Assembly: GCA_944325695.1 (NCBI GenBank)
Contig: CALVBA010000010.1
Span: 1-40,073 of the forward strand
From: an uncultured Anaeroplasmataceae bacterium
Lineage (GTDB): Bacteria > Bacillota_I > Bacilli_A > Acholeplasmatales > Anaeroplasmataceae
Reading direction: 5' to 3'
DNA: 40,073 nucleotides
The translations under genes and the position numbers were made by a program. The stretch's first letter is position 1; every line of letters begins with the position of its first letter. Under the pieces are notes generated by a model. The model was not told where the DNA came from, did no database searches, and worked only from the letters and a program-made list of their open reading frames with translations. Below, in pieces: positions 26,737 to 28,454 of this stretch.

Positions 26737-26763
26737 TATTAAAAATCTCTCCTTAACATATGT

Positions 26764-26792
26764 ATTTTACCATATTTAAGAAGAGTTGAAAA
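26764..26792 (-). promoter_or_regulatory. Promoter for the nusB operon
   Basis: On the minus strand TTTTCA (26787-26792), 17-nt spacer, TAAAAT (26764-26769) with a TG one base upstream (extended -10). It lies between the spoIIIAH stop and nusB, so the housekeeping operon need not depend on the sporulation gene. Confidence 0.6.
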
Positions 26793-26806
26793 GGTTTTAT
26801 TTTTTT

Positions 26807-27283
26807 TTATACTCCAGTTTTGCTAAGTTTTATTTTAACTTCAACATTATAATCAAAATTACTTTGCACAATATCGCATACTGTTATAAACTCATCAATA
26901 TTAAACACATTCGCTAAAATATCAATATCTAATGTATCATTTGTAATTACAACTAAACAATCATCATAACCTAAAGAAATTATTGTATCTTCTAAAATAA
27001 TTTCTTGAATTGTTAAATATTCGATAGCTTCTAACTTTTCTAAAGCCTCATTAATATCTAAGATATCATCAGCATTTGAAATTGATGCTTCTAATTCTAA
27101 AATTCTACTAGTGCGTTCTTCAGTTAAAGAAATTCTTTTTGTGGCATATTCCACATATCTACTATTAGTATCGATTGGATCACCACCATTAACCAAGTCA
27201 CTGCGTTCTTGATTAGCATAATACACCGTAAGCATAACTAAAACTGCCAATAAAAAAACTGATAATTTATTCTTTCTTAACAT
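26807..27283 (-). CDS. spoIIIAH: SpoIIIAH-like sporulation channel protein
   Basis: A 158-aa protein with an N-terminal membrane anchor (about residues 7-22, FLLAVLVMLTVYYANQ) and an extracytoplasmic domain. The ISLTEERTSRILELEASISN helix and YDDCLVVITNDTLDIDI strands fit the C-terminal YscJ/FliF-like domain of SpoIIIAH. SpoIIIAH is made in the mother cell and pairs with forespore SpoIIQ. It lies near nusB, as in Bacillus, where it ends the spoIIIA operon. Here spoIIIAA-AG are not in front of it, since potD is. Expression signals are unusual: see the terminator and sigma-E-like promoter just upstream. It is shorter than the Bacillus protein (about 218 aa). Confidence 0.82.
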   Translation of the reverse strand: MLRKNKLSVFLLAVLVMLTVYYANQERSDLVNGGDPIDTNSRYVEYATKRISLTEERTSRILELEASISNADDILDINEALEKLEAIEYLTIQEIILEDTIISLGYDDCLVVITNDTLDIDILANVFNIDEFITVCDIVQSNFDYNVEVKIKLSKTGV

Positions 27284-27325
27284 AAAAACCCTCCTACTTA
27301 TACTAAAATTGTATGCATAGGAGGG
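27284..27325 (-). terminator. pot operon terminator whose 3' arm is the spoIIIAH ribosome site
   Basis: On the minus strand CCCTCCTA (27318-27325) pairs perfectly with TAGGAGGG (27289-27296), with an inner ATAC/GTAT pair, then TTTTT and at once the spoIIIAH ATG. A transcript reading through from potD would both terminate here and have its AGGAGG ribosome site buried in the stem. Confidence 0.75.
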
Positions 27326-27336
27326 AAGATATATAC
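27308..27336 (-). promoter_or_regulatory. Sigma-E-like promoter for spoIIIAH inside the terminator hairpin
   Basis: On the minus strand CATACAAT (27308-27315) is a full match to the sigma-E -10 consensus, 14 nt from GTATATA (27330-27336), a 5/7 match to the -35 KMATATT. Transcription would begin past the hairpin's 5' arm, leaving the ribosome site free. Sigma-E control of spoIIIAH is known in Bacillus. Confidence 0.65.
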
Positions 27337-27341
27337 ATTTT

Positions 27342-28454
27342 TTATCTTGAAACCATGAAATTTAACCATTCTTCATCTGTTAATTCTTTATTTTCTGGAC
27401 TATAGCGAAACATTTCATCATTTAATCCAATGTTAATACGATAGATGTTGGCATATTCAGCATAACCATAATCATCTTGTTCATAAGATGTCTTTAAGCA
27501 ATATTCATAAACATCATTAACACTTGAAGTATAACCAACTTCTTGTGTATTTAACAAAGCATTTTCAAAACGGCACATAAAGTCAATAAACTTATAAGCC
27601 ATTTCTACATTCTTAGCGTTCTTTGGAATAGCCATCCCATCTGACCAAATATTAGTTCCATTTTTTGGTTTATAAAAATCTAAAACATCTGTTTCTTCTT
27701 CGCTAATAACATATAAAGCATCACCTGAATAAGTTACCGCCATATCATAACGCAAAGCAATCATATCATCTAATAATGCATCTGTTAAAATAGCTAATTT
27801 ATCTGATGCATAATTTGTTTTCATTTCTAAAAGCCAATTTTTAGCTTGTAATATTTCTTCACGATTAGTTGTATTCATGCTATAACCTAATTGTTTTAAA
27901 GGAATCATAAATCCATCGCGTGAAGAATCATAATAAGCTGTTTTGTATTGATTATTACGATTTAAAAGGATATCCCAATTTAAGTTTTCTAAATCAGTTA
28001 AACTAACTTTATTAGTGTTATATGTTATTCCGACTGTTCCACAGAAATAAGGTACTGCATACTTTAAAAAATCAAACCCTTGATACATTTCTGTATCATC
28101 TTTCATTTTATTTAGTATTTGTAATAAATCAGCATTAACATCTTCTTTTTGATATTCTAATTTTGACCAATCTAATTCTTGAATTAATCCAGCTTGGCTT
28201 AAATCTTCAATCGCATAATCTGATGGGAAAATAACATCATACGATTCACTTTTTAATTTTGTGATCATATCTTCATTTGAATTAAATGTGGAATAGACTA
28301 CATCAACATTATATTCTTGTTCAAAAGCCTTAATAACATCATGTGAAATGTATTCTCCCCAGTTATAAACATAAAGTTTTTCTTTTTGTGAGCATCCAAA
28401 AACTGATGTTAGAGTTAATACACAGACAAAAGATAAAATTATTTTACGAAACAT
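27342..28454 (-). CDS. potD: Spermidine/putrescine-binding lipoprotein
   Basis: Substrate-binding protein of a polyamine ABC importer, 370 aa, anchored outside the membrane. A lipoprotein signal ends in the lipobox SVFGC (Cys 21). The mature part begins LYVYNWGEYIS, the PotD/PotF signature, followed by VIFPSDYAIEDL, VPYFCGTVGITYNT, TYSGDALYV and NIWSDGMAIPKNAKN. Its start overlaps the potC stop by one base. It is the last gene of potABCD. Confidence 0.95.
   Translation of the reverse strand: MFRKIILSFVCVLTLTSVFGCSQKEKLYVYNWGEYISHDVIKAFEQEYNVDVVYSTFNSNEDMITKLKSESYDVIFPSDYAIEDLSQAGLIQELDWSKLEYQKEDVNADLLQILNKMKDDTEMYQGFDFLKYAVPYFCGTVGITYNTNKVSLTDLENLNWDILLNRNNQYKTAYYDSSRDGFMIPLKQLGYSMNTTNREEILQAKNWLLEMKTNYASDKLAILTDALLDDMIALRYDMAVTYSGDALYVISEEETDVLDFYKPKNGTNIWSDGMAIPKNAKNVEMAYKFIDFMCRFENALLNTQEVGYTSSVNDVYEYCLKTSYEQDDYGYAEYANIYRINIGLNDEMFRYSPENKELTDEEWLNFMVSR

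Follow-up and report, generated by a model that had tools for sequence, protein, structure and literature searches.

Upstream of spoIIIAH in an uncultured bacterium of the family Anaeroplasmataceae lies a hairpin whose 3' arm is the Shine-Dalgarno (SD) site of the gene and whose 5' arm is part of a sigma-E-like promoter. Here, we analysed the 40,073-nucleotide stretch that holds this hairpin (contig CALVBA010000010.1 of assembly GCA_944325695.1), hereafter referred to as the window, and compared its arrangement with those of related genomes. From sequence and predicted folding, we consider it probable, at roughly two chances in three, that a sporulation promoter here incorporates an insulator against read-through. 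RNA that reads through from the upstream vegetative gene, here potD, would hold both arms of the hairpin; with both arms present, the SD site of spoIIIAH would be base-paired and little SpoIIIAH would be made. In the sporulating mother cell, sigma-E RNA polymerase would start at the loop or the 3' side of the hairpin, and its RNA, being without the 5' arm, would have an open ribosome site and be translated. Since the 5' arm would lie in promoter DNA, usually in the weakly constrained spacer between the -35 and -10 elements, it could change along with the ribosome site. Our computations showed the hairpin and its conservation, and they showed that the predicted short RNA loses the mask.

The gap between potD and spoIIIAH on the minus strand, from the potD stop (27344-27342) to the spoIIIAH start (27283), is 58 nt long and reads, after the potD stop, AAAAT GTATATA TCTTCCCTCCTATG CATACAAT TTTAGTATAAG TAGGAGGG TTTTT ATG. 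The features of the locus are as follows.

27342..28454, minus strand: potD-like gene (substrate-binding protein), from its open reading frame; SBP_bac_8 match with E 1e-19, NCBIfam PotD match below the equivalog cut-off.
27330..27336, minus strand: sigma-E-like -35 element GTATATA, 5/7 to KMATATT, from sequence and score.
27317..27325, minus strand: 5' arm of the masking hairpin, CCCTCCTAT, entirely within the -35/-10 spacer, from repeat search and folding.
27308..27315, minus strand: sigma-E-like -10 element CATACAAT, located in the loop and along the inner 5' side of the hairpin, from sequence and the conserved position of CATANANT.
27301..27304, minus strand: predicted transcription start, placed from the position of the -10 element, giving a leader of about 18-21 nt.
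27289..27297, minus strand: 3' arm of the hairpin, GTAGGAGGG, which holds the SD sequence AGGAGG (27295-27290), from repeat search and folding.
27284..27288, minus strand: T5 run between stem and start codon, a candidate terminator tail, from sequence.
26807..27283, minus strand: spoIIIAH, 158 aa, stand-alone (no spoIIIAG upstream), from PF12685.

The hairpin occupies positions 27325-27289, and within it CCCTCCTA (27325-27318) and TAGGAGGG (27296-27289) are perfectly complementary. At full length the arms have 15 nt and are 80% paired; the stem can be described as 9 bp, a 2x2 internal loop and 4 further bp. Folding of the 42-nt hairpin gives -18.5 kcal/mol (z = -5.25), and none of 200 shuffles was as good. 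The sigma-E-like -35/-10 pair falls within the same 50 bp as the hairpin. A first-pass annotation had described the perfect pairing of the arms, the TTTTT and ATG that follow directly and a promoter spacing of 14 nt, and each of these was confirmed on the minus strand.

SpoIIIAH was identified by PF12685, with 36.8 bits against a gathering cut-off of 30.6 (E 5e-9). The operon upstream is potABCD-like, with PotA barely over its NCBIfam cut-off and the other members below theirs; the potD-like gene is the last of this operon and a possible source of read-through. The host genome, a draft of 1.34 Mb, has a completeness of 97%. Genomes of the Anaeroplasmataceae carry sporulation genes (PMC10868615), and this one has SpoIVA, SpoVS and a sigma factor of the SigE class, whose match (E 6e-77) stays below the NCBIfam equivalog cut-off, together with a second close relative that is probably SigK. 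A SigE-class factor is present in every genome of the order whose spoIIIAH leaders were read.

The putative promoter consists of GTATATA (27336-27330) and CATACAAT (27315-27308), separated by exactly 14 nt. Compared with the sigma-E consensus that we used (-35 KMATATT, spacer of 13-15 nt, -10 CATACANT), it matches at 5/7 positions of the -35 and 8/8 of the -10 element. The window contains 14 sites of comparable score, not above the 16.5 expected from shuffles. Because such sites are as frequent as in shuffles, the promoter cannot be argued from the window itself, and only conservation speaks for it: CATANANT is found at -38 to -24 in every one of the 17 spoIIIAH leaders read in the order, compared with 1.6% of 305 control genes. 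We infer sigma-E use at spoIIIAH, the start site and the repression in the cell from these sequence data.

To quantify masking, we calculated how much energy it takes to open the start region, from the SD site to the start codon, in an RNA begun 80 nt upstream and in one begun at the predicted sigma-E start. In the window, opening the SD site costs 14.3 kcal/mol in the read-through RNA versus 0.9 in the predicted short RNA, which from 27301 folds at -0.4 kcal/mol and is unstructured; no shuffle of the 5' part, out of 200, matched this masking. Across the 17 leaders of the order set, in which that of the window is included, opening costs 6.4-17.9 kcal/mol in read-through RNA and 0.4-6.7 in short RNA, and the difference amounts to 5.9-15.8 kcal/mol in every leader. 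A first control set of 179 other genes from the same stretches reached 5.9 kcal/mol in 7.8% of cases and 12 in none. All four genomes with potD upstream, from two families (the host, G000, with G038, G002 and G008), pair the SD site with the promoter spacer, as do several other genomes. The base beside the SD core covaries with its partner: the window has C-G, G002 A-U and G008 G-C. A different mode is seen in six genomes (four closely related ones of genus g7, with G026 and G146), where the -10 element itself pairs with the start-codon region; the partners are CATATACT and AGTATATG or CATATAATT and AATTATATG. When the 5' half of one species was joined to the 3' half of another, mean masking was 7.8 in the swapped leaders versus 11.4 in the native ones; many swaps still mask because the SD core is common to the species. 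Neither sequence nor loop is conserved among the leaders of the order; masking alone is. The loose pattern CTCC..CATA..GGAG, scanned across 41 genomes, was too unspecific to be informative.

Across the class, an alignment-based search of 395 genomes found SpoIIIAH in 80, and DNA was surveyed for 60 genomes outside the order. A gap was called short when spoIIIAH lies 35-85 nt behind a codirectional gene, which applies to 52 leaders, the order included. Among these, 43 differ by at least 5.9 kcal/mol, versus 7 of 45 short-gap controls, where the threshold is the lowest value of the order, picked after the data had been seen, the p-values ignore shared ancestry, and kinship among the genomes makes the counts overstate independence. 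By family, masking was found in 16/16 leaders of f1, 1/1 of f4, 10/11 of f9, 5/6 of f14, 7/9 of f19 and 2/2 of f22. It is rarer where the gap is long (2/9) or a separate terminator is present (4/11). Eight or nine short-gap members of the class fall below 5.9, and four of those, in family f17, have a terminator of their own, a short AGCTC-type hairpin and a T-run near the upstream stop, which the terminator search had missed. Three f15 genomes, in which spoIIIAH lies 1-12 nt behind the upstream gene, had no SD site by the rule used and were left out of the measurement.

The gene upstream of spoIIIAH, mostly named by reading its sequence, varies among potD, a GGDEF/EAL protein, efp, ribF, thymidine kinase (tdk), aspS and membrane proteins, and potD occupies this place in only 4 of the 17 leaders of the order. 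Since the upstream gene varies, polyamine uptake is incidental, and the regulation specific to it that the first-pass annotation had proposed was dropped. Genomes of genera g6 and g7 have, directly upstream of spoIIIAH and in the position of potD, a gene whose product is about 1030-1050 aa long and carries GGDEF and EAL-like domains. The conserved trait is predicted masking behind a close neighbour, neither the gene partner nor the sequence. The same annotation had held that the SD site would be masked in read-through RNA and that RNA from the inner promoter would escape the mask; the predicted opening costs support both claims in 17/17 leaders of the order and 43/52 short-gap leaders of the class. 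Its suggestion to look for the arrangement in related genomes proved decisive, as the layout recurs in many related bacteria and so looks selected.

The hairpin could serve mainly as an intrinsic terminator for the pot operon, with the SD site merely coinciding with its 3' arm and masking as a by-product. The window has a stem followed by T5, the spacers of G002 and G008 are T-rich, and no other hairpin this strong was found in the 300 bp searched. However, a T-run precedes the start in only 3 of 17 leaders, compared with 12% of controls, the last 7 nt of the leaders show no significant T enrichment over other genes (p = 0.11), many relatives mask without a U-run, and six genomes have the pairing over the start codon, where a terminator would not be expected. 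A simple terminator scan of the window left the hairpin unflagged. We regard this explanation as unlikely, though with some weight left to it. Termination, which the first-pass annotation had assumed for the window, was dropped as a conserved function; in the window the hairpin may have a dual role, and termination may add to masking in genomes of the potD type. Masking might also be unselected, arising from the pairing of CATA in a sigma-E -10 element to TATG and from chance complementarity of AT-rich spacers. This would suit the g7 genomes G006, G020, G023 and G029, whose start-codon pairing masks no more strongly than do shuffles that keep the -10 element, so that masking may there be a consequence of the motifs. 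Yet none of 150 such shuffles reached the window, G038, G002, G008, G019 or G033, and long-gap leaders with a sigma-E-like -10 element stay unmasked, which leaves passive overlap improbable as the general explanation.

Hairpins at ribosome-binding sites are a common form of regulated switch, and the hairpin could accordingly be a thermosensor, a ligand sensor or a small-RNA target that acts on spoIIIAH translation whatever the promoter. The native sigG leader of B. subtilis indeed has a small hairpin at its ribosome-binding site (PMC5942855). A search of Rfam with the hairpin matched no family, the predicted sigma-E RNA is unstructured and without the 5' arm, and it is masking that is conserved, not sequence or loop; these observations make a switch very improbable. 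A chance inverted repeat joined to a chance promoter match in AT-rich DNA is scarcely credible: promoter-like matches of such score are common in the window, but 0/200 and 0/150 shuffles equalled the masking, and the recurrence in 17/17 and 43/52 leaders also argues against coincidence.

The proposed insulator has relatives among known systems. In IS10 and IS50, fold-back masks the transposase start in transcripts that enter from outside; those are genes of mobile elements, with no developmental programme. Closer is gene e (lysozyme) of phage T4, where, as in soc, 49 and I-TevI, long early transcripts mask the ribosome site, and about 100-fold less lysozyme is made (PMC3014915). The DNA for the 5' strand contains the T4 late promoters; late RNA consequently lacks this strand and is translated (PMC3014915). 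The spoIIIAH case is like it in that the long RNA is predicted to be masked, and its putative inner promoter would give RNA without the 5' strand. They differ in that T4 uses phage late promoters at a lysis gene and was tested by experiment, whereas spoIIIAH is a bacterial sporulation gene for which the arrangement is predicted, class-wide and with changing pairing partners. In B. subtilis, a hairpin before sigG (spoIIIG) was proposed to block translation of read-through RNA from spoIIGA-sigE, and RNA begun at the sigG promoter cannot form it (PMC5942855). This too is a read-through hairpin at a sporulation gene; however, the sigG hairpin has 20+ bp and belongs to a forespore gene (sigma-F/sigma-G) behind a sporulation operon, whereas spoIIIAH is a mother-cell gene behind vegetative genes. 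By its predicted behaviour, the spoIIIAH case extends the T4 gene e and sigG kind to new genes; its 5' arm lies in promoter DNA, and it recurs widely. We found no report of this arrangement at spoIIIAH in the open-access literature. If true, it would show how compact genomes silence developmental genes without spending DNA on a terminator, supply dozens of natural variants that retain masking with altered paired bases, and offer a sequence signature for sporulation start sites in uncultured bacteria, whose transcripts are not yet mappable.

A pattern scan of the host genome found CATATAATTT...AAATTATATG before spoVS, a gene confirmed by PF04232. There (contig C17, about 22037-21998, minus strand), behind an apparent ymdB, a sigma-E-like -10 element lies inside a structure that masks the SD site or the start codon. 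Among 17 spoVS loci, 15 were readable; the difference is 4.2-11.8 kcal/mol in all 15 and at least 5.9 in 12 or 13 (two print as 5.9), and a CATA motif stands at the expected place in 13. Leaders of spoIVA gave mixed masking results, and some of their starts are uncertain. It is possible, if somewhat short of probable, that in spore-forming lineages of the class, which includes relatives of the Mollicutes, nested masking hairpins generally stand in for terminators where a sporulation gene (spoIIIAH, spoVS and perhaps spoIVA) follows a vegetative one, and evolve fast; one mode would use the sigma-E -10 element itself as the anti-start-codon strand.

The sigG leaders of these genomes also fold over the SD site (e.g. 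GTCTTCC...GGAAGAT), like the hairpin at the B. subtilis sigG ribosome-binding site (PMC5942855). In our judgement, this hairpin probably lies within the native transcript, as in B. subtilis. SpoIIIAA, SpoIID and SpoIIIAG were searched for in the host genome and none was detected, so spoIIIAH stands alone between potD and nusB. In the host and its relatives, SpoIIIAH co-occurs with the SigE-class factor, with SpoIIIAA and SpoIIIAG undetected, and SpoIID was missing from the 41 genomes searched except G038; SpoIIIAH has apparently been retained in the absence of the channel proteins searched for. The gap before nusB (window positions 26737-26806, minus strand) holds an extended sigma-A-like match, TTTTCA-17-TAAAAT with TG before it; with this promoter match of its own, nusB need not rely on transcription through spoIIIAH.
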